Shown here: positions 4,617 through 16,467 of the stretch, piece by piece
How the letters are laid out: each line of letters starts with the position of its first letter
Numbering within the stretch: position 1 is the stretch's first letter
NCBI GenBank assembly: GCA_025458865.1
Contig: JALORP010000011.1
Span: 37,848 to 101,847, forward strand
Direction: 5' to 3'
Source: Steroidobacteraceae bacterium
Lineage (GTDB): Bacteria; Pseudomonadota; Gammaproteobacteria; Steroidobacterales; Steroidobacteraceae
Length of the DNA stretch: 64,000 nt
Notes under the pieces: generated by a model
What the model was told of the DNA's origin: nothing
What the model saw: the letters and a program-made list of their open reading frames with translations, nothing else
The model's database searches: none
Made by a program: the position numbers and the translations under genes

Positions 4617-7091
4617 TCAATGCAGCAGCGTGGCAGCGCTGCCCAGCACCGCGGCGCAGCTGGCCTTGACCACCGTCGCGGTCCGACCTGCCGGGCAGCT
4701 GCCGCCGCAGGCGGTCAGCCGGCCCATCAACGACTCGAGCTCCGTGCGGATCTCGTCGGCCGACGGCTGGGTAGCGATGCCGCTGCCCACCGCCCTGCTC
4801 ACCAGCGGCCCGATCACCAGCTCGCGCTCCCCGGGCGTGTCGAAGGCCTGACCCGCGGGCGCCGCGAAGTTGAAGCCGGGGAAGAACGTGTCGCGCCTGC
4901 CCGGGTCGTCCACCAGCGAGTTGCAGACCTCGATGGCCATCTGCGCAACGCCGATCTGGTGCGAGGACAGGAAGCCCTCGATGCCGTCGGCGGTGGGCAG
5001 CTGCTGCTTGATCCGCTCGTAGGTCTCGTCCACGGCCGGGTCGGTGCGCGGCACGCCGGTCATCTCGGACATCGAGGCGGCGATGCGCTCGAAGGTCCTC
5101 ATGCCCACGCGCGGCTGCGGCTGGCCGTCCGCCGGCGGCGGCGGCGCGATCGGCGGCGCCTCGGTGTGGGTGTGCGAACGATTGCCGATTTGCTCGAAGC
5201 TCAGGAAGAACTGGTCGAGCGCCGGGCCCTTGTCGAGGCCGATGACCGTGCCGATCTGGGCGAGCGGGAAGCCCGTCGGCGACTCGTAGCCGGCGGCATT
5301 CACCGTCGCGTCCACCGAGACGAAGGCCTGGCCGACCTTGGCCTCGGCGCCGTTGATGCCGAGACGCACGCCCTTCAGCCGCAGCCCGTCGAGCGTCGCC
5401 GGCGCGGCCCCTGGCGTGAGCCTGACGACCGACGGCTTCTCGAACAGGTAGCCGTAGCTGTCGAACTGGCTCGCCTCGAGCAGCACGTAGCTGTCCGGGA
5501 TGTCGGTGAGGTGCGCAACGCTGAACAGCATGTAGAAGCGCTCGCCGACGCCTGCCTCGAAGTTCTGCAGGATCTGCGGCTGCGTGAGCGCGCGGTTGTG
5601 GACCGCGACCAGCCGGATGACGCCCTGCCACTGGCGGTCGCCGGAGACCTCGTTGCCCAGGACCAGCGCGAAGGTGTCGTTCCAGTCGGCGAGTGAGCCG
5701 CCGCCCTGCGGATCGCTGCCGGTCACCAGCTCGCCGTTCACGTAGATGCGGCGGCCCTCGACGGGGTCGTAGGTCGCCACCACGTGCTGCAGCGTCGCCT
5801 GCAGGACCTGCCGCGCCGAGGGCGTGGACAGCTGCGGCGCGCCGTTGGCGCCGGTCGTGCTGCTGCGGTTCATGAAGTCGTAGTCGTACATCGTCTGGCC
5901 GAGCGTGAAGTTCCGGGCGGTCGTGCCGCCGGAGTAGCTGACGATGTACGCGTCCTCCTGCACGACGTTGGCCGGCGCGACCCAGGCCTCGACGGAGTAC
6001 TCCCCGGTCGCCTTGATCAGGTCGTGCAGCTTGCGGCTGCCGGTCGTCGAGGACTGCAGCTTGCCGCTCCTCACGTTGACGCCCCAGCCTCCGACCCACT
6101 CCACGTCACCGGACATGTTGAGGTTGGCCGCCGGCTCGACGCCGCTGGTGTCGTAAGCGACCGTACCGGTGCCGGTCTTGAACTCGAACAGCGCGATGAC
6201 GCTGCTGTCGAAGCGGTTGCCGCCGCTCGCGACCGTGCCTTCGTAGAGCGACAGCGCCTTGGACACGAGGAGCGTCGGGTCGACCTGGGTCAGCGGGACG
6301 CTGTTAGCGAACTGGCGGATCGCCGCTTCCATGGCGTTCGCGTTCTGCTGGCAGTCGCCCCAGCAGTTGTGGAACTCCTCGCGCAGGCGGACCACGAAGC
6401 GCGACAGCTCGGGCGCGTCGAGGTTGATTCGAGGCCGGGCCGCCGAGTAGGCGATGTCCACGTCGCGCTCAGCGAAGAACGGCGACTGCGCCGGCTGGCC
6501 GCCGGAGACGTGGCAGCGCGAGCAGTTCTGCTCGAGCAGCGGATACACCGTGGTGGCGAAGCTGCCCGGGCTGGCCGGGAAGGACTTGCTGGCGCCGACG
6601 TCGCGCAGCGGCGGCGGCTGCAGCGCGATCTCGCGCGTGCCGCCGACGGTCGCGCCGGCCCAGTTGCGGATCCACACCGTCAGCTGGTCGGCGCACGCGG
6701 AGTCGGCCCCGAGCCAGCAGTTGTGGCCGCCGCCCACCTTGGAGACCATCCGCGAGCCGCGCGGGTCGTTGAGGTTGACGACGCCGTTGGCGGCCTCGTA
6801 GGCGAGATTGATGTCGTCCCGGCGCGCGAACTGCGGCGACTGCCCGCCCTGGCCGTGGCAGGAACCGCAGCGGTTGTTGGCCTGCAGGTTGTCCCAGACG
6901 TTCAGCTTGAACGACTGCACGTCCTGGCTCGCGGGCGGCGGCCCGCTGTAGCCGGCCGGCGGCGGCGCGCTGGTGACCGGGTTCTCCTGGACGGGGGCCC
7001 CGCCGCCGCAGGCGGCCGCGAGCCAGCCGATCGCTGCGACTGTCAGTGCGGCGCGCAGGCCGCGGAGCGAGAAGGAATCCTTGGTGTTCAT
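4617..7091 (-). CDS. LamG-domain lipoprotein with two c-type heme motifs
   Basis: MNTKDSFSLRGLRAALTVAAIGWLAAACGGG lipobox; CGSCH and CSRCH; LamG-like region EYSVEAWVAPANV...IYVNGELVTG; 824 aa; start re-chosen at 7091. Confidence 0.8.
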   Translation of the reverse strand: MNTKDSFSLRGLRAALTVAAIGWLAAACGGGAPVQENPVTSAPPPAGYSGPPPASQDVQSFKLNVWDNLQANNRCGSCHGQGGQSPQFARRDDINLAYEAANGVVNLNDPRGSRMVSKVGGGHNCWLGADSACADQLTVWIRNWAGATVGGTREIALQPPPLRDVGASKSFPASPGSFATTVYPLLEQNCSRCHVSGGQPAQSPFFAERDVDIAYSAARPRINLDAPELSRFVVRLREEFHNCWGDCQQNANAMEAAIRQFANSVPLTQVDPTLLVSKALSLYEGTVASGGNRFDSSVIALFEFKTGTGTVAYDTSGVEPAANLNMSGDVEWVGGWGVNVRSGKLQSSTTGSRKLHDLIKATGEYSVEAWVAPANVVQEDAYIVSYSGGTTARNFTLGQTMYDYDFMNRSSTTGANGAPQLSTPSARQVLQATLQHVVATYDPVEGRRIYVNGELVTGSDPQGGGSLADWNDTFALVLGNEVSGDRQWQGVIRLVAVHNRALTQPQILQNFEAGVGERFYMLFSVAHLTDIPDSYVLLEASQFDSYGYLFEKPSVVRLTPGAAPATLDGLRLKGVRLGINGAEAKVGQAFVSVDATVNAAGYESPTGFPLAQIGTVIGLDKGPALDQFFLSFEQIGNRSHTHTEAPPIAPPPPADGQPQPRVGMRTFERIAASMSEMTGVPRTDPAVDETYERIKQQLPTADGIEGFLSSHQIGVAQMAIEVCNSLVDDPGRRDTFFPGFNFAAPAGQAFDTPGERELVIGPLVSRAVGSGIATQPSADEIRTELESLMGRLTACGGSCPAGRTATVVKASCAAVLGSAATLLH

Positions 7092-7102: not shown

Positions 7103-8284
7103 TCACTCGCCCATGCAGAAAGCGGCGGACTCGGCGAACACCTGCCTCAGCCGGTACCCGCCAGAGCGGAACGAGGACACCATCGAGGCGACCTGCGCGC
7201 GGTCGGCGGCGTCTGTCGGCGTGCGCAGGCACACCGTGCGGAAAACCTTCTCGACCTGGCAGCTGGCGAATGCCTCGCTGTTGCCAAGCTCCGCGCCCAG
7301 CGAGGCGGCGCCGGCGCCACCCCCGGGCAGCGACGGGCTCCAGCCGAGCAGCGCGTTCTGGCCCGCGCGCCAGTAGTTGTCCCAGCGGTCGTTGCGGGTG
7401 ATATAGCCCGGACGGAAGGTGTCGGCGTTGATCGAGTACTTCGGGCGCACCTGCCCGGGCGTGTAGATCATGCGGCCCTGGTCCTGGTCCCAGTCGTGGT
7501 AGGCGAAGGCCTGCGCCATCGGATCCATGCCGGCGTGGCAGGTGACGCAATTGTTCAGGAACAGCCGGCTGTCGCCGCCGGGGCTGCGGCTCACGTCCTG
7601 CCGGATGCGGTCGGCCTGGCGCGAGCCGTCCTGCAGTTCCTCGAGGTCGTGGCACAGGTGGTTGAGGAGCGTGAAGCGGAACATCGCGCGGTTGGTGCCG
7701 GCGACGAAGAAAGACTCGGCTGCCGCGCGGGTGGTCATGACGCCGGCGGCGGCCTCGACCGGGAAGCCGTAGGTCCCCGACTGGGTTCGCCGCTGAAGCA
7801 CGCTCTTGAGGTCGGCGTGCCGGCGTTCGAGCGCCTCGTAGTGCGCGTTGCTCGAGACGCTCGGCGCGGGCACCCCGGACACTCCGTTGCCGACGTACAG
7901 TATGTCGGCGGAGAGCAGCTCGTTCATCGGCACGTCGTCGCGCACCATGCCGATGAAGGTGGCGACGTAGTCGTTGAGAGGTGCGAACACCGTGCGGTCG
8001 CGGTTGGTCCACGGCATCGCGAGGTTCTTGAGGGTGACCGAGTAGAACGCCGGGTGCTCCATCGCACGGAAGGCCGCGTCCTGCGACCGTCCCGCCGAGA
8101 TGTCCGCGGCCATCGCGTCGAGCGTCGCGGCGGCCGCCGGCACGCCTGCGATGCGGTCGTGCATGCGCTTGGCCTGCTCGCGCGGCCCGGCCTGGGCGGC
8201 GCCGGCCGCGAGCGTCGCGGCTATGAGCCCGCACGCTGCGATGCGGATCGCATGGCCGTCGAAGATGCTTCGGTCGCGTTTCAT
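7103..8284 (-). CDS. Cytochrome c-like secreted protein with one CxxCH
   Basis: MKRDRSIFDGHAIRIAACGLIAATLAAGAAQAG signal peptide; FLNNCVTCHAGMDPMAQAF; start re-chosen at 8284. Confidence 0.75.
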   Translation of the reverse strand: MKRDRSIFDGHAIRIAACGLIAATLAAGAAQAGPREQAKRMHDRIAGVPAAAATLDAMAADISAGRSQDAAFRAMEHPAFYSVTLKNLAMPWTNRDRTVFAPLNDYVATFIGMVRDDVPMNELLSADILYVGNGVSGVPAPSVSSNAHYEALERRHADLKSVLQRRTQSGTYGFPVEAAAGVMTTRAAAESFFVAGTNRAMFRFTLLNHLCHDLEELQDGSRQADRIRQDVSRSPGGDSRLFLNNCVTCHAGMDPMAQAFAYHDWDQDQGRMIYTPGQVRPKYSINADTFRPGYITRNDRWDNYWRAGQNALLGWSPSLPGGGAGAASLGAELGNSEAFASCQVEKVFRTVCLRTPTDAADRAQVASMVSSFRSGGYRLRQVFAESAAFCMGE

Positions 8285-8353
8285 TTGTGTGCTCCGTTCA
8301 CTCACGGCGTCCTTCAGACGGGGCCGACTATAGGCAGGCGTTTCGCGCGACGT

Positions 8354-8375
8354 AATGTCTCTGAACTGCGACATT
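8354..8375. promoter_or_regulatory. Candidate operator dyad in divergent intergenic region
   Basis: AATGTC-N10-GACATT, perfect 6-bp arms in the 8285-8537 gap between divergently transcribed arms. Confidence 0.35.
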
Positions 8376-8537
8376 CCACGATCGGCGCGTTCACGCTAGG
8401 GTAGAAGCGTGATCTGCAGTGCGCGGAAGTGCTGTGCGCTGTGTCCCGAGGCCTGAAAGCCCCGGAAAAGTGTGAGCCCGTTGGCAGTCCGGGCGCGGTC
8501 GACGCAGACCGGCCGGGACCTCCAGGAGACGATCGAG

Positions 8538-11143
8538 ATGCGCGTCACGAAATGGAAAAATGCCGTAGCGGCGGTCGCGGCGCTCGCGCTTGCGGGCTGC
8601 GAGAGCAGCACCGACGGCAGCCTCGACATCGGCGGCGGCCAGTCGCCCGACCCGGTCGTGCTCGACTTCCCCGTAGCCTACGTAAAGCGCGCGCTGCCCA
8701 CCGGCACCGAGGACGTGCGGCGCCTGCGGAGCTTCCAGGCGGGCGCGGACCTGTGGCTGCGCGACCGCGCGGCGCCCTCCGCCTCCGAGCGCAACATCAC
8801 CGGCGGCGTGACCGGCGGCGAGTGGGACCTGCGCGACGTGGACGTCTCCTACGATGGCAACCGGCTGCTGTTCTCCATGCGCCCGCCGCTCATCGATGGC
8901 GCCGAGGAGAGCGAGCAGCCGACCTGGAACGTCTGGGAGTACGACCGAACGACCGACACGCTCCGGCGCGTGATCGCCTCCGATCTCGTCGCGGAGGAAG
9001 GCCACGACGTCGCGCCGCACTACCTCCCGGACGGGCGCATCGTCTTCTCCTCGACGCGCCAGCGGCAGTCGAAGGCCACGCTCATCGACGAGGGCAAGCC
9101 GCAGTTCCCCGCGCTCGACGAGGATCGTCGGGAGTGGGCCTTCGTGCTGCACGTGATGAATTCGGACGGCACGGGCATCCGCCAGATCTCCTTCAACCAG
9201 AGCCACGACCTCGACCCGGCCGTGATGAACGACGGGCGGATCGTGTTCTCGAGATGGGAGAACGCCTCGGGCAGCTCGATCCACCTCTATACGGTGCGGC
9301 CGGACGGCGCGGGGCTCGAGCTCCTCACAGCCACGACACCGGCAGCGGCGGCTCGGTCGTACAGTTCCTGCAGCCGCGGCCGAGGCCCGACGGGCGGGTG
9401 CTGGCGCTGATCCGTCCCTTCAACGGCACCGAGCAGGGCGGCGACGGCGTGCTGATCGACACCGCGGGCTACGTCGAGATCGCCCAGCCCGTGCTCGCCA
9501 ATGCCGGCGCTGCCGGCCCGGCGCAGGTGAAGGTCACCGGTAACGACGTGCGCACGGTCCCCGGGCTCTCGCCCGGCGGCCGCTATGCCTCGCTGTTCCC
9601 GCTCTGGGACGGCACCGACCGCGTGCTCGTCAGCTGGACCCTGTGCCGCGTCCTGCTCGACGGACGCCAGCTCCCCTGCAGTTCGTCGGACGCGACGAAC
9701 CCGCAGGCCGTGGTGGCGCCGCCGCTGTACAGCGTGTTCATGTGGGACCCGCGGGACGGCACGCAGCGACCCGTGCTGCAGCCGCTCGAGGGCACCATGT
9801 ACACGGATGTCGTCGCGATGCAGCCGCGCACCCTGCCGCCGGTCATCCTGGACGCGGTCGCGGGCGTGGACTACGACTCGGATCTCGCCACTGAGAACGT
9901 CGGGCTGCTGCACATCAGGAGCGTCTACGACCTGGATGGCACGGACAACGCGCCCGGCGGCATCACCGCCCTGCGCGACCCGGCCCAGGCGACGGCCGAC
10001 CAGCGCCCGGCGCGCTTCCTGCGCATCGAGAAGGCGGTGGGACTGCCGGACGACGAGGTACGCGACTTCCGCGGCACGGCCTTCGGCGTCGCCGGCGGCC
10101 TGGGCATGCGCGAGATCCTCGGCTACGCGCCGATCGAGCCGGACGGCTCGGTCAAGGTGAAGGTGCCGGCCGGCGTGCCCTTCGGCATCACCGTGCTGGA
10201 CCGCGACGGCAAGCGGATCTCGCCGCGCCACCTCAACTGGCTGCAGCTGCGGGCGGGCGAGGTGGTGACCTGCAACGGCTGCCACGTGCCAGCGGGCCAG
10301 CAGCCGGCCGGCCAGCCGCGCGTATCGCACGGCCGCAGCGGCCTCACGGCGAGCGTCAATCCCGGCGCGCCGACGACCGGCTCACCCTTCCCCAACACGG
10401 TTCCCGCGCTGTTCGCGGACCAGGGCGAGACCATGGCGGAGACGCGCAGCCGCATCAGCTGCCAGACTGATTGCGCGGCGCTGCTGCCCTCGGTCGACGT
10501 CGTCTACGAGGACGTCTGGACCGACGAGACCGCGGCCGGGCGCGCGCCCGACGCCCCCTTCGCGTTCCGCTACTCGGCCCTCGCCACGCCGGCGCCGACG
10601 AACCTCGCCTGCCAGCAGGAGTGGTCGTCGCTGTGCCGGATCGTCATCCACTACCCGGACCACCTGCAGCCGCTGTGGGACCGGTTGCGGCAGGTGCTCG
10701 ACGTGGACGGGGTCACGGTCCTGGAGGACCGCAGCTGCCTCTCCTGCCACAGCCCGCGCGACGCCGACGGCCTCGTGCGCGTGCCGGAGGGGCAACTCGA
10801 CCTGACCGGCGAGCCCTCGCCCGAGCAGGCCGACCACCTGGTCTCCTTCCGCGAGCTTATGTTCACTGACAACGCCCAGGAAGTTAACATGGGCGCACTG
10901 CAGGACATCCTGGTGCCCGGACCGCCGGACCCGGTCACCGGCCAGCCGACCCTGGTGCCCGTGCCGGTCGCCCCCTCGATGAGCGGCGGCGGCGCGCGGG
11001 CCTCAGGCCGGTTTTTCAGCCGGTTCGAGGCGGGCGGGTCGCATGCGGGTTTCCTCGATCCGGCCGAACTGCGACTCATCGCCGAGTGGCTCGACATCGG
11101 TGGACAGTATTACAACGATCCCTTTGCAGCGCCGGCGGACTGA
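8538..11143 (+). CDS. PD40/hydrazine-synthase-alpha-like lipoprotein with two CxxCH motifs; apparent frameshift near 9326
   Basis: MRVTKWKNAVAAVAALALAGCESS lipobox; beta-propeller-like repeats (DVSYDGNRLLFSMR, HYLPDGRIVFSSTR, VMNDGRIVFSRW); TCNGCH and SCLSCH. N-terminal part is in the frame of ORF 8472-9410, C-terminal part in the frame of ORF 8429-11143. Confidence 0.7.
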
Positions 11144-11248: not shown

Positions 11249-11977
11249 ATGAGGTTCCTCCTCGTCGCGGCGGTCCTCCTGCTGCTCGCGCTGCCAGCCA
11301 CCGCCGCCGGACCGGAGGTCACCGTCGCGGAGCCCTTTATCGAGCTTCGCACCGGACCGGGCCGGGGCTACCCGGTCACTCAGGTGGTCAAGCGGGGCGA
11401 GGCCGTGACCATCGAGAAGCGCCGCACCGACTGGTTCAAGGTCGCGGATGCCGATGGCCGCAGCGGCTGGGTGCACCGCTCGGCCATGCTGGCGACGCTG
11501 ACCGAGGCCGGCGAGCCCCTGCCGATCGATGATCCGGGCCGCGAGGACTTCGGCGAACACCGCCGCGAGCTCGGCGTGCTGGCCGGGGACTTCGAAGGCG
11601 CCAACGTCATCACCGTCTACGGCGCCTGGGCCTTCAACCCGCACCTGTCCGCGGAGCTGCGCCTGTCGCAGATCCTCGGCAGTTTCTCGGACGGGGAGAT
11701 GGCCACTCTCGGGCTCACGCACGTATTCAGGCCCGACTGGCGCGTCCAGCCCTTCGTCGGCCTCGGCACTGGCGTGATCGACATCCAGCCGAAGGCCTCG
11801 CTGGTCCAGACGGAGGCGCGCACCGACCAGGTCGCCTACGCCGGACTGGGCGTCAAGGGTTACCTGTCGCGGCGCTTCATCCTGCGCGCAGAGTTCAACA
11901 AGTACGTCGTGTTCACCGACCGCGACGACAACGAGGAAGCCGACGAATGGAAGCTGGGTTTCGCATTCTTCTTCTGA
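11249..11977 (+). CDS. SH3-domain plus outer-membrane beta-barrel protein
   Basis: Signal peptide; bacterial SH3 pattern (FIELRTGPGRGYPVTQVVKRGEAVTIEKRRTDWFKV...GWVHRSAM); barrel-like C-terminus ending WKLGFAFFF. Confidence 0.8.
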   Translation: MRFLLVAAVLLLLALPATAAGPEVTVAEPFIELRTGPGRGYPVTQVVKRGEAVTIEKRRTDWFKVADADGRSGWVHRSAMLATLTEAGEPLPIDDPGREDFGEHRRELGVLAGDFEGANVITVYGAWAFNPHLSAELRLSQILGSFSDGEMATLGLTHVFRPDWRVQPFVGLGTGVIDIQPKASLVQTEARTDQVAYAGLGVKGYLSRRFILRAEFNKYVVFTDRDDNEEADEWKLGFAFFF

Positions 11978-12624
11978 GCGCCGTCCTGGCGCTGCCCGGC
12001 TGCGCCTGGGTGCGCGGCGGCGAGGTCCCGGAGACGGCCGAGGCCGACGCCGGGGAATCCGAGGCCGTGCCCGAGGTCATCTCGCCCCAGGTCGAGCGGC
12101 GCCCGGTCAAGCCGGCGAAGATCGACACCGAGAACTGGGAGGCCGGCGCCTACATCGGGTCGCTGTCCGTCGAGGACTTCGAGGTCAACAAGGTCCTGGG
12201 CGGGCGCATCGCCTTCCACATCAGCGAGGACTTCTTCGCGGAGGCGATCTTCGGCCAGTCGGACGCCGGCATCTCGAGCTACGAGCGGCTGTCGGGTTCC
12301 GCGCCACTGCTGACCGATAGTGAGAGGGAGTTCAAGTACTGGAGCCTCGGGTTCGGATGGAATGTGCTCCCAGGAGAGGTGTTTCTCGGCGGGTCTCGCG
12401 CCTACAACAGCGCGGTCTACCTGACCGCAGGCGCGGGCAGCACCACTTTCGCCGGCGATGATCGTTTCACGGTCACCCTCGGTGCCGGTGCGAGGCTGCT
12501 GCTGACGGACTGGCTGGGGCTGCACCTCGACATCCGGGACCACATCCTCGAGGTCGACGTGGTGGGTACGAACAAGGAAACCCACAACTTCGAGGCGACG
12601 GTCTCGCTGACGGCGTTCTTCTGA
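11947..12624 (+). CDS. Outer-membrane beta-barrel lipoprotein
   Basis: MEAGFRILLLSAVLALPGCAW lipobox; alternating aromatic strands; C-terminal F (SLTAFF); overlaps previous gene by 31 nt. Confidence 0.75.
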   Translation: MEAGFRILLLSAVLALPGCAWVRGGEVPETAEADAGESEAVPEVISPQVERRPVKPAKIDTENWEAGAYIGSLSVEDFEVNKVLGGRIAFHISEDFFAEAIFGQSDAGISSYERLSGSAPLLTDSEREFKYWSLGFGWNVLPGEVFLGGSRAYNSAVYLTAGAGSTTFAGDDRFTVTLGAGARLLLTDWLGLHLDIRDHILEVDVVGTNKETHNFEATVSLTAFF

Positions 12625-12655: not shown

Positions 12656-13171
12656 ATGCTGACCACTCGCCGCATCTTCCTCGGATCGGCCTTCGCGACG
12701 GCCGCGGCCTGCGCCGCGCCCGCGGCATTCGCTGCCGGCGCCGCCGGCAGCGCCACGCCCGCGCCTGACTTCGAGCTGCCGCTGCGCTCCGGCGGCGCGG
12801 TCAAGCTCGCGGACCTTCGCGGCCAGGTCGTGATGCTCAACTTCTGGGCCAGCTGGTGCGCGCCCTGCCGCCAGGAGTTCCCGATCCTCGACGAGATGTA
12901 CCGGAAGTACCAGCCCATGGGGTTCACGCTCCTCGGCGTCAACGTCGAGAGCGAGACCAAGGATGCGGAGCGGTTCCTCTCGGCCATGCCCGTGTCCTTC
13001 CCCATCGCCTTCGACCGGGAGAACGCGGTGAGCGGCCAGTACGGCGTCTCGGCGATGCCGACGACGCTGCTCGTGGACCGCAAGGGCAACGTCCGCTGGC
13101 TGCATCGCGCCTACAAGCCCGGCGACGAGAACGAATACATCAGCCAGGTCCGCCGGCTGCTGCGGGAGTGA
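12656..13171 (+). CDS. TlpA family disulfide reductase
   Basis: APDFELPLRSGGAVKLADLRGQVVMLNFWASWCAPCRQEFPILDEMYRKY; WCAPC. Confidence 0.9.
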   Translation: MLTTRRIFLGSAFATAAACAAPAAFAAGAAGSATPAPDFELPLRSGGAVKLADLRGQVVMLNFWASWCAPCRQEFPILDEMYRKYQPMGFTLLGVNVESETKDAERFLSAMPVSFPIAFDRENAVSGQYGVSAMPTTLLVDRKGNVRWLHRAYKPGDENEYISQVRRLLRE

Positions 13172-13173
13172 GC

Positions 13174-13401
13174 ATGAAGAACCTCCGTCCGGCCCTCTGG
13201 CTCGCCATCGCGCTCGGCACCGCCGGCTGCGGCCCGGTCGAGCCCTGGGTCAAGCCCTACGAGCGCGAGCGCCTCGCGGATCCCATCATGAGCTGGGACC
13301 GCGACCCCGTTTCCGCGTCCTACATGAAGCACGTCTACGAGTCCCGAGAAGGCTCCCGCGGCGCCATGGGCGGAGCCGGCGGCGGCTGCGGCTGCAACTG
13401 A
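13174..13401 (+). CDS. DUF4266-type small lipoprotein ending GGGCGCN
   Basis: MKNLRPALWLAIALGTAGCGPVEPWVKPYERERLADPIMSWDRDPVSASYMKHVYESREGSRGAMGGAGGGCGCN, 75 aa; hidden inside ORF 12856-13401; lipobox TAGC. Confidence 0.8.
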   Translation: MKNLRPALWLAIALGTAGCGPVEPWVKPYERERLADPIMSWDRDPVSASYMKHVYESREGSRGAMGGAGGGCGCN

Positions 13402-13403
13402 CC

Positions 13404-14540
13404 ATGCGCCGGCACGCCCTCCTCGCCCTCTCATGCTGCGCGGCCCTCTCGGCGCCTGCGCAGGCAGGCGTGCTGGCGGAGGACCGCGCCGACGTCATGT
13501 ACCACCTCTACGACGGCGGCGGCGTCGAGATCGACGGCCCCTCGATGCTGGTGCGCAAGAAGTTCGCCGAGAAGTACGCCGTCAGCGCCAACTACTACGT
13601 GGACCTGGTCTCGAGCGCATCGATCGACGTGGTGACGACCGCGAGTCCGTACAAGGAGGAGCGCAAGGAATACAGCCTCGGTGGCGAGTACCTGCGCGGC
13701 AAGTCGATCTACACGGTCGGGTTCACGAACAGCAAGGAGAACGACTACGAGGCCAACGCGGCGAGCGTGTCCATCTCGCAGGACATGTTCGGCGACCTGA
13801 CGACGCTGCAGCTGTCGTTCTCGCGCGGCTGGGACCAGGTGTTCCGCCGGGGCGACGATACCTTCGAGGACCGCCTGGACCGTCGCGTGTACGGCGCGGA
13901 CCTCACGCAGGTGGCCACGAAGTCGCTCATCCTCGGCCTGTCATGGGAAACGGTCACCGAGGAAGGGTTCCTCAACAACCCCTACCGCAGCGTCCGCTAC
14001 CTGGACCCGGAGGCCGCCTCGGGCTACTCCTACCAGGCGGAGGTCTACCCGCGAACCCGCACCGGCAACGCGCTCGCCGTCCGCGGCCGGCACTTCCTGC
14101 CCTGGAGGGCCGCCGCACAGGCGGAATACCGGTGGTACTCGGACAGCTGGGGCGTCCTCGGCCACACCGTCGAGCTGTCCTACACCCAGCCTTACGGCGC
14201 GCGGTGGGTCTTCGATGCCCGCTACCGCTGGTACACGCAGGACGGCGCCGACTTCTACTCCGACCTGTTCCCGCGCGAGGACTTCCAGAATTTCCTGGCG
14301 CGCGACAAGGAACTGGCGACCATGACGAGCCAGACCATAGGCATCGGCGCGAGCTACGAGCTGCGGCTGCCGGGCATGGACTTCCTGGAGAAGACGACCG
14401 TCAACTTCCGCTACGACTACATGCTCTTCGACTACGACGACTTCCGCGACCTCCGCGTCACGGGCGTCCCGCCCGGCACCGAGCCGTTCTACGACTTCAG
14501 CGCGAACGTCGTGCAGCTGTTCTTCTCGGGCTGGTTCTGA
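13404..14540 (+). CDS. DUF3570-type predicted outer-membrane beta-barrel protein
   Basis: 378 aa; signal peptide; MYHLYDGGGVEIDGPSMLVRKKFAEKYAVSANYYVDLVSSASIDVVTTASPYKEERKEYSLGGEYL; terminal aromatic residue (FFSGWF). Confidence 0.8.
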   Translation: MRRHALLALSCCAALSAPAQAGVLAEDRADVMYHLYDGGGVEIDGPSMLVRKKFAEKYAVSANYYVDLVSSASIDVVTTASPYKEERKEYSLGGEYLRGKSIYTVGFTNSKENDYEANAASVSISQDMFGDLTTLQLSFSRGWDQVFRRGDDTFEDRLDRRVYGADLTQVATKSLILGLSWETVTEEGFLNNPYRSVRYLDPEAASGYSYQAEVYPRTRTGNALAVRGRHFLPWRAAAQAEYRWYSDSWGVLGHTVELSYTQPYGARWVFDARYRWYTQDGADFYSDLFPREDFQNFLARDKELATMTSQTIGIGASYELRLPGMDFLEKTTVNFRYDYMLFDYDDFRDLRVTGVPPGTEPFYDFSANVVQLFFSGWF

Positions 14541-14541
14541 C

Positions 14542-15516
14542 TCAGGGCGGCGCGAGTCCCGACGAGTACAGCACCTTTCCGCCGGCGGTCACCAGCACGG
14601 CGTCCACGTCCCGGAGCCTCTCGATGAGCGCGAGGCCGCGCTCGGCTCCCAGCACGAAAACGCCGGTGGAAAGGCCGTCGGTCGTCGTGGCGTCCGGCCC
14701 GATGATGGTCACGCTGCGCAGTTCCCCGGCGCTGCGGCCCGTCCGCGGATTGATGATGTGGTGGTACCGCTGCCCGTCCTCGTCGAAGTAGCGCTCGTAG
14801 TCGCCCGAGGTCGAAAGCGCGGCGTCCACGAGCGGAATCCGGGAAACGACGCGCTGCCGGTCGTCCGGGTGGCGGATGCCGATCACCCAGGGCCGGCCGA
14901 GCCGGTCGCCGAGGATGCGCGTGTCGCCGCCGGCGGTGACGGTGCCGTGCCGGATGCCCTTCTCCGCCAGGATCGCGACGCCGCGGTCCACGGCGTAGCC
15001 CTTCGCAATCCCGCCGAGGTCGATGCGAACGCCGTCCTGCGTGAAGCGCACGGTGGAGGCCGCGCGGTCCACGATCACGTGGCGCCAGTTCACCGCGGGC
15101 AGGTGCGCGGCGATCTGGGCGTCGTCCGGGCGCTGTCCGGCGCGGTAGTCGTAGAGGTAGCCGACGCTCGCGTAGGTGATGTCGAAGGCGCCGTCGGTGA
15201 GCACCGAGAACTCGAGGGCGCGAGCGATCAGTGCGGCGAGTTCGGGAGCGACCGCCACCGGCCCGGCGGCCGCGCGCGCATTCACCTGGGAGAGCTCGCT
15301 CTCCGGCTTGTAGTGCGACATCAGCCGGTCCACGCGGTGCATCTCGGCGAACACCGCGGCCATCGCGGCATCCGCGACCGCGGCGTCCTCGTGCCAGGCC
15401 TCGACCGCCACGCGCGTACCCATGATGGCTTCCTCGCGTACGCGCCACTCCGCCGCGGCGGGCGCGGCTGCAAGCAGCGATGCGGCCGCGAGCGCCGCCG
15501 ACAGCAGTGCTTTCAT
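14542..15516 (-). CDS. apbE: FAD:protein FMN transferase (ApbE family)
   Basis: EAIMGTRVAVEAW, FDITY, DLGGIAKGYAVDRGV, TAGGDTRILG, GDYERYF, HHIINPRTGRSA, ATTTDGLSTGVFVLG; 324 aa; start re-chosen at 15516. Confidence 0.92.
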   Translation of the reverse strand: MKALLSAALAAASLLAAAPAAAEWRVREEAIMGTRVAVEAWHEDAAVADAAMAAVFAEMHRVDRLMSHYKPESELSQVNARAAAGPVAVAPELAALIARALEFSVLTDGAFDITYASVGYLYDYRAGQRPDDAQIAAHLPAVNWRHVIVDRAASTVRFTQDGVRIDLGGIAKGYAVDRGVAILAEKGIRHGTVTAGGDTRILGDRLGRPWVIGIRHPDDRQRVVSRIPLVDAALSTSGDYERYFDEDGQRYHHIINPRTGRSAGELRSVTIIGPDATTTDGLSTGVFVLGAERGLALIERLRDVDAVLVTAGGKVLYSSGLAPP

Positions 15517-15663: not shown

Positions 15664-16467
15664 ATGCGCATGTTCGCCCCCGCCACTGTCCTGCTCGCCG
15701 CGATGCTCGCCGCCGGCCCAGCCGCCGCGGAATCGCGCGAGGAGAAAAACATCAGCCAGTCCCTGCAGGTCCTCACGGAGCTGCAGAGCATGCCCGACCT
15801 CAAGGCCCCCGACTGGCTCCTGCAGCGCGCCGAAGGCATCGCGATCCTGCCGCAGGTCGTGAAGGCCGGCGTCGTCTTCGGCGGCCGCGGCGGCACCGGC
15901 GTGCTGCTGGTGCGCCAGCCCGACGGGCGCTGGAGCAACCCGCTGTTCATCGGCATCGGCGCCGGCAGCTTCGGCTGGCAGTTCGGCGTGCAGGCGACGG
16001 ACATGGTCTTCGTGTTCACGACCCGCCGCAGCGTCGAGGGCATCGCCGGCGGCAAGCTGACGCTGGGCGGCGACGCGGCCGCCGTGGCCGGACCGGTGGG
16101 CCGATCGGCGACCGCAGCGACCGACCTGACGCTGGCCGCCGAGGTGTATTCGTACTCGCGCAGCCAGGGCCTGTTCGCCGGGGTCTCGCTCGAGGGCACC
16201 TACCTGTTCCCTCGCAACAGCGCGAACGACCGTTTCTACGGCCGCAAGGGCATCCTGCCCTCCGAGATCCTCGCGCCGGAGGCCCCACTGTCGCGCGCGC
16301 CCGCGCCGGCGCTGATCGCGGAGGTGGCCCGCATCACCGCGGCGCCGACCGCAGCGGCACCGGCTCCAGCGCCGGGCGCCGCCGCACCGTCGGCCGCGCC
16401 CCCGGCGACGGGCAGCGCCCAGACTTTCCCGATGGCGGACCCCAAGCCCGGCGAGGAGCCGCGCTGA
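15664..16467 (+). CDS. SYLF/Ysc84-domain lipid-binding protein
   Basis: LLQRAEGIAILPQVVKAGVVFGGRGGTGVLLVRQ...FIGIGAGSFGWQFGVQATDMVFVF; signal peptide; Pro/Ala-rich tail. Confidence 0.85.
   Translation: MRMFAPATVLLAAMLAAGPAAAESREEKNISQSLQVLTELQSMPDLKAPDWLLQRAEGIAILPQVVKAGVVFGGRGGTGVLLVRQPDGRWSNPLFIGIGAGSFGWQFGVQATDMVFVFTTRRSVEGIAGGKLTLGGDAAAVAGPVGRSATAATDLTLAAEVYSYSRSQGLFAGVSLEGTYLFPRNSANDRFYGRKGILPSEILAPEAPLSRAPAPALIAEVARITAAPTAAAPAPAPGAAAPSAAPPATGSAQTFPMADPKPGEEPR

Follow-up and report, generated by a model that had tools for sequence, protein, structure and literature searches.

Co-loss of the DUF4266 C-terminal CxC with the flavin acceptor sites of a DUF3570 barrel and its ApbE in Steroidobacteraceae

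The closest described systems are gene clusters that encode ApbE, DUF3570, a thioredoxin-like protein and DUF4266; 221 clusters with DsbD contain DUF4266, and 316 clusters without DsbD have also been described (Meheust, 2021; PMC8238504). That study presented DUF3570 as an ApbE-flavinylated protein, the Chlorobium member acquiring flavin at two serines in E. coli when only its own ApbE was co-expressed, and proposed the CXC of DUF4266 for redox cycling. ApbE acts on the motif D-x-x-[S/T]-G-A-[S/T], with FMN attached to the last residue (PMC12052999). Since the DUF4266 family, its CXC motif and the redox guess have been published (PMC8238504), the system analysed here is not a new kind. The initial annotation had called the function of DUF4266 unassigned, which is correct in so far as only a one-line guess existed, but the CXC had already been named as a candidate redox-cycling site. 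What is added here is the evidence of coupling, a tandem flavin-like site that lacks Gly, the fusion of DUF4266 to the barrel in loci that have lost the CxC, and an eight-gene locus.

In the window, which is the whole 64 000-nucleotide stretch that we analysed, positions 13174–13401 (plus strand) encode a 75-aa DUF4266 lipoprotein. Its translation, MKNLRPALWLAIALGTAGC-GPVEPWVKPYERERLADPIMSWDRDPVSASYMKHVYESREGSRGAMGGAGGGCGCN followed by a stop codon, is identical to that given in the initial annotation, and its resemblance to DUF4266 is borne out by a match that covers the entire 50-position Pfam model (PF14086, positions 1–50, E = 1.8e-23, 83.6 bits against a curated cut-off of 27). The gene lies between those for a TlpA/ResA-like thioredoxin (12656–13171) and a DUF3570 barrel (13404–14540), as had been noted, and most likely starts with the ATG at 13174, 2 nt past the TlpA stop and with GGGAG just 5' of it. 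A mechanically called GTG open reading frame of 181 aa (12856–13401) is in frame with DUF4266 and runs out of frame through TlpA, which explains why the gene had been described as masked. The hydrophobic start and the lipobox LGTAGC (13174–13230, plus strand) suggest a signal peptide and lipidation at Cys19, which is invariant among 42 aligned members. In the AlphaFold2 model, predicted helices at residues 28–34 and 45–61 are followed by a disordered arm (residues 62–75; 13357–13398, plus strand) that ends in G-G-C72-G-C74-N75, with pLDDT below 50 at residues 69–71 and 73–75. Residues 69–75 read GGGCGCN, and thus the C-terminal CXC of the family is present; the last five of these, G71 to N75, are invariant in the DUF4266 alignment.

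Loci were gathered with a hidden Markov model in the phylum and the order, by a sequence pattern in named genomes and, within the family of the window, by way of the neighbouring barrel. The broad DUF4266 alignment (17 types) was too unconserved for scanning the collection and an alignment of type A, the type found in the window, was used instead. The CxC was retained in 201 of 209 readable loci, a count in which five parse exceptions were judged by eye. Three barrels are without a readable DUF4266 because they lie at contig ends (L164, L175) or beside a run of N (L160); at L180, too, no DUF4266 was read. The invariance of the terminal GCGCN, which the initial annotation had proposed to check, thus proved nearly complete: in one count 137 of 138 loci carried this tail, and over all sets of loci the variants GCGCL, GCGCS, GCGCY and GCGCNE turned up once each. 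The same tail ends the proteins of loci found solely via the neighbouring barrel or the N-terminal pattern [IV][EQ]PWVKPY, and in 223 distinct copies its codons vary synonymously (TGC/TGT, GGN, AAC/AAT and all three stop codons). Retrieval that does not depend on the tail therefore recovers it, which, with the synonymous variation, argues against chance.

This near-invariance is new, and the tail is also present in Bacteroidota, where a Hymenobacter plasmid copy with the tail GGGCGCN adjoins genes for a thioredoxin, ApbE and a DUF3570 barrel that likewise carries D-x-x-S-S-A-S; the search of plasmid proteins yielded two Hymenobacter records only. On the Hymenobacter volaticus plasmid (L273, 3300–4800), ApbE and DUF4266 are unannotated next to DUF3570 and apparently frameshifted. 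Two genomes of one genus (L024 and L025, both at 1501–1653) encode a DUF4266 with the GGGCGCN tail and no visible lipobox or signal peptide. A selenocysteine variant of DUF4266 was ruled out, there being no in-frame stops among the DUF4266 matches.

The DUF3570 outer-membrane beta barrel (13404–14540, plus strand; PF12094, E = 4.8e-40, 138 bits against a cut-off of 25) is modelled with 16 main strands at a pLDDT of 93.3. The two canonical [S/T]GA[S/T] sites that we sought in it are absent, and their places are taken by SSAS and TTAS within the flavin-site-like motifs D67-L-V-S-S-A-S73 (13602–13622, plus strand) and D75-V-V-T-T-A-S81 (13626–13646, plus strand). Both keep the Asp, the Ser/Thr, the Ala and the acceptor Ser of the ApbE motif, with only Gly replaced. 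Across 58 aligned barrels D67, A72, S73, D75, A80 and S81 are invariant, the Gly positions of both motifs are variable, and no conserved Cys was found. That the motif without Gly marks a dead, unflavinylated barrel is less likely, as invariance of the acceptor residues goes with the presence of ApbE and their loss with its absence. The natural losses described below suggest that ApbE sites need not carry the textbook Gly, so that motif searches would miss such substrates. A structure search with the barrel returned generic outer-membrane barrels only (FadL, AlgE, OmpG and a polysaccharide pore). Judged by strand parity, the motif loop (residues 72–82) would lie on the outer side if this barrel, like known ones, has both termini in the periplasm. 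The highly conserved residues of the barrel map in the model mostly to the outer loops and the outer halves of the strands, which would be unusual for surface loops.

Convergent with the barrel gene is that for ApbE, an FAD:protein FMN transferase with an apparent signal peptide (14542–15516, minus strand; PF02424, E = 1.2e-85). It is the single ApbE match in the window genome (87% complete), and a search of the same genome for FMN_bind and DUF2271 substrates found none, so that the DUF3570 barrel is its only recognized candidate substrate. The thioredoxin, identified by domain search and by its WCAPC motif (plus strand), corresponds to the thioredoxin-like protein of the described clusters. 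DsbD (PF02683) was absent from the gene cluster of the window, the sole DsbD_TM match being on another contig; as DsbD is present in one copy in all 14 genomes tested, including those without the CxC, it is uninformative as a marker of the module.

On the plus strand, the gene order is SH3-barrel protein, TIGR04565 barrel, TlpA, DUF4266 and DUF3570, followed by ApbE on the minus strand. These five plus-strand genes, of which the first two encode outer-membrane proteins, belong to a conserved, previously undescribed eight-gene locus; the other three genes of the locus encode proteins with heme motifs. All 51 named loci with sufficient flank encode DUF4266 and DUF3570 together with an HZS_alpha-domain protein with two CxxCH (8472–11143, plus strand, in two frames in the window; PF18582, E = 4.4e-13), a protein with SH3 and outer-membrane barrel domains (11249–11977, plus strand; by domain search) and a TIGR04565 outer-membrane barrel with a lipobox (11947–12624, plus strand; NCBIfam TIGR04565, E = 1.6e-44); 43 of them have a TlpA match. 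Encoded divergently, and present in 47 of the 51 loci each, are a PSD2/DUF1585-like protein with one CxxCH (7103–8374, minus strand; PF07624, E = 2.5e-4, which is below the cut-off) and a LamG lipoprotein with two CxxCH (4617–7091, minus strand; PF13385, E = 7.6e-23). The HZS_alpha-like, PSD2-like and LamG proteins of these loci mostly have 2, 1 and 2 CxxCH, respectively. The DUF4266 module is thereby linked to HZS_alpha-like heme proteins, and for HZS_alpha homologues outside anammox bacteria no confirmed function has been reported (PMC12758564). In the window, the HZS_alpha-like gene is split into frames at 8472–9410 and 8429–11143, with the propeller part up to about 9400 and the heme part after it; as the gene is one open frame in relatives (e.g. 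L286), the split reflects a frameshift or an assembly error. Across the order (147 genomes), all 81 genomes with DUF4266 also have DUF3570, and ApbE is found in 80 of these 81 against 31 of the 66 without DUF4266 (Fisher test, 2e-14, uncorrected for relatedness).

Among the barrel loci of 200 Steroidobacteraceae genomes, eight DUF4266 proteins lack the CxC. Every one of the 201 loci with the CxC has at least one [ST]-x-A-[ST] site in its barrel; the barrels of all eight loci without it have neither flavin acceptor site, and the cognate ApbE is missing as well. Five of the eight genomes have no ApbE at all, and the other three have it only within another system, beside a second, type-B DUF3570 (G566 and G635) or near an FMN_bind gene (G408). 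In one genus (L140, L253 and L263) the tail is like REAIRDGRSDDTASRR and the motif region like QVRAPDVDLAAP, and the search of these genomes for ApbE found none. In another (L141, L264, L265 and L266) the DUF4266 body, now devoid of the CxC, is fused in-frame to the barrel. The motif region there is RESSPDV or NDDSVDL, and these genomes either have no ApbE or have one from another system; the one-frame fusions, with lipobox, VRPYER and DUF3570, lie at L141:4620–5939, L264:2201–3562, L265:444–2087 and L266:2498–4201. An intermediate state is seen in G635 (locus L248), which has the tail GCSSN, the motifs SGVS and FAA, and no cognate ApbE. The other seven loci are fully decayed, and heme proteins are missing in all six that have enough upstream flank, whereas in 13 of 13 intact loci looked at they are kept with their CxxCH. 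Barrel and lipoprotein bodies persist in the eight loci and therefore have a role beyond redox, and the WCxxC of TlpA is retained in six of them, which implies either an additional role of TlpA or its later decay. A Ysc84/SYLF-domain gene (15664–16467 in the window) stays beside the barrel even in L140, L141, L253 and L263, which have lost the redox part.

The best tree of the neighbouring outer-membrane protein OMP2 places these changes in three separate losses, of which two are forced by well-supported branches. The co-loss thus represents only two or three independent events, a number with which a sign test is unable to reach 0.05. Two genomes without ApbE and with an intact tail (G558 and G716) were set aside as their barrels are at contig ends, and L167 retains an ApbE fragment. 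As read from the gene sequences, the co-loss speaks for one shared module; it does not demonstrate that the parts touch, that electrons flow between them or which was lost first. These natural losses connect the cysteines of DUF4266 with the flavin sites on the adjacent barrel and single out a testable pair, the CxC and Ser73/Ser81.

Since the CxC is lost only alongside the flavin sites and ApbE, the likeliest role of its two cysteines is to act with the barrel flavin. We therefore favour, with a probability of about 0.6, a reading in which TlpA and DsbD feed an electron-transfer module of the envelope, with the CxC tail acting as thiol partner to a flavinylated barrel. DUF4266 would be a small lipoprotein directed to the outer membrane, whose Gly-rich arm bears the vicinal thiol pair Cys72-Gly-Cys74. 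ApbE would attach FMN to Ser73 and/or Ser81 of the barrel, and the cysteine pair, alternating between dithiol and disulfide, would relay electrons between this FMN and periplasmic TlpA, which the genome's only DsbD would recharge. The barrel may then trade electrons with the co-encoded HZS_alpha-like, PSD2-like and LamG-cytochrome proteins or with an outside acceptor. We infer that the motifs without Gly are flavinylated and that thiols transfer electrons to the flavin, as well as the direction of flow and the role of the heme proteins. Several points count against the model. The co-loss comprises only two or three independent events, TlpA keeps its WCxxC in six of the eight loci without the CxC, and the window barrel lacks the motif Gly, whose replacement by Ala in another protein lowered flavinylation to about half (PMC12052999). 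In addition, a flavin loop on the outer side would be far from a thiol in the periplasm if the arm stays outside the lumen. A bolder version, which we consider unlikely, is a conduit across the outer membrane: the arm would reach from the periplasm into the lumen of the 16-stranded barrel, and its CxC would reduce two FMNs at the Gly-less sites near the outer mouth, which would pass electrons to surface heme proteins; if true, no multiheme wire would be needed for electrons to cross the outer membrane.

The initial annotation had offered metal binding, thiol redox or modification as roles of the cysteines. Thiol redox stands as the role that fits best, and the other two have no supporting neighbour gene. 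A CxC with Gly is chemically a good site for soft metals, and the arm might bind Cu(I), Zn or Fe, delivering it to the neighbouring redox proteins or sensing it for them. Some published DUF3570 clusters include the VIT1 iron transporter (PMC8238504), but the three widely recurrent neighbours in 80 loci are heme-motif proteins with no recognizable metal transporter among them, the loss follows the flavin sites and ApbE, and the conserved neighbour is TlpA; we regard metal binding as quite improbable. Far more improbable is RiPP-like cysteine modification of the tail by a peptide-modifying enzyme, which would suit a short peptide with an invariant Cys-containing C-terminus: no maturase is recognizable among the recurrent neighbours, and the constant partners of DUF4266 are TlpA and a barrel that bears flavin sites. 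The suggestion that the barrel displays or receives the CxC can be sharpened by the co-loss to the CxC working with the barrel flavins; ApbE, the flavin sites and the upstream heme genes had been missed.

The same co-loss would be expected if the arm served in assembly or loading, holding the flavin loop open for ApbE or isomerizing disulfides during export, and became dispensable once the barrel was no longer flavinylated. Folded flavoproteins can conceal the motif from ApbE (PMC10722498), and the DUF4266 gene adjoins that of the barrel. Such a role nevertheless seems unlikely, because the aligned barrels offer no conserved Cys to isomerize, a simple wedge has no need of an invariant CxC, and the Chlorobium protein is flavinylated in E. 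coli with only its ApbE (PMC8238504). Alternatively, TlpA and DUF4266 could serve heme attachment by keeping the CxxCH cysteines reduced in the three heme proteins encoded alongside, as most loci encode these proteins with their five CxxCH and the deeply decayed ones lack them. This is very doubtful: G635 has no CxC but keeps all three heme proteins with all five CxxCH intact, which ties the CxC to flavin rather than to heme maturation, and the Bacteroidota genes for DUF4266, DUF3570, ApbE and thioredoxin adjoin no such heme proteins.

Compared with the DsbD clusters of Meheust (2021; PMC8238504), the window shares DUF4266 with its C-terminal CXC, DUF3570, ApbE and the thioredoxin-like protein, but its cluster is without DsbD (one is encoded elsewhere in the genome), its barrel sites are SSAS/TTAS and not [ST]GA[ST], and it adds the SH3 and TIGR04565 outer-membrane proteins and the HZS_alpha, PSD2 and LamG heme proteins. 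The main text of that paper makes no mention of TlpA, SH3, a lipoprotein or a barrel. In the same bacterial order, a type-B DUF4266 (PWERDxLA...DDHIYFSKE...GGGGCGCN) has the tail and the DUF3570 and ApbE partners in common with the window type but differs in its N-terminal half, and its barrel mostly carries canonical SGAS/TGAS. Some genomes encode both types, and in L112 the two DUF4266/DUF3570 systems, one of each type, are arranged tail to tail on one contig. The flexible C-terminal GCUG arm of mammalian thioredoxin reductase is also a vicinal redox pair that faces a flavoprotein; there is no homology, that pair contains selenocysteine, and DUF4266 is a separate polypeptide with no in-frame stop. 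With MtrCAB-type conduits the window shares an outer-membrane barrel with redox partners and lipoproteins, a functional resemblance only: MtrCAB holds a multiheme wire inside the barrel, whereas the module proposed here would use a covalent flavin and a thiol.
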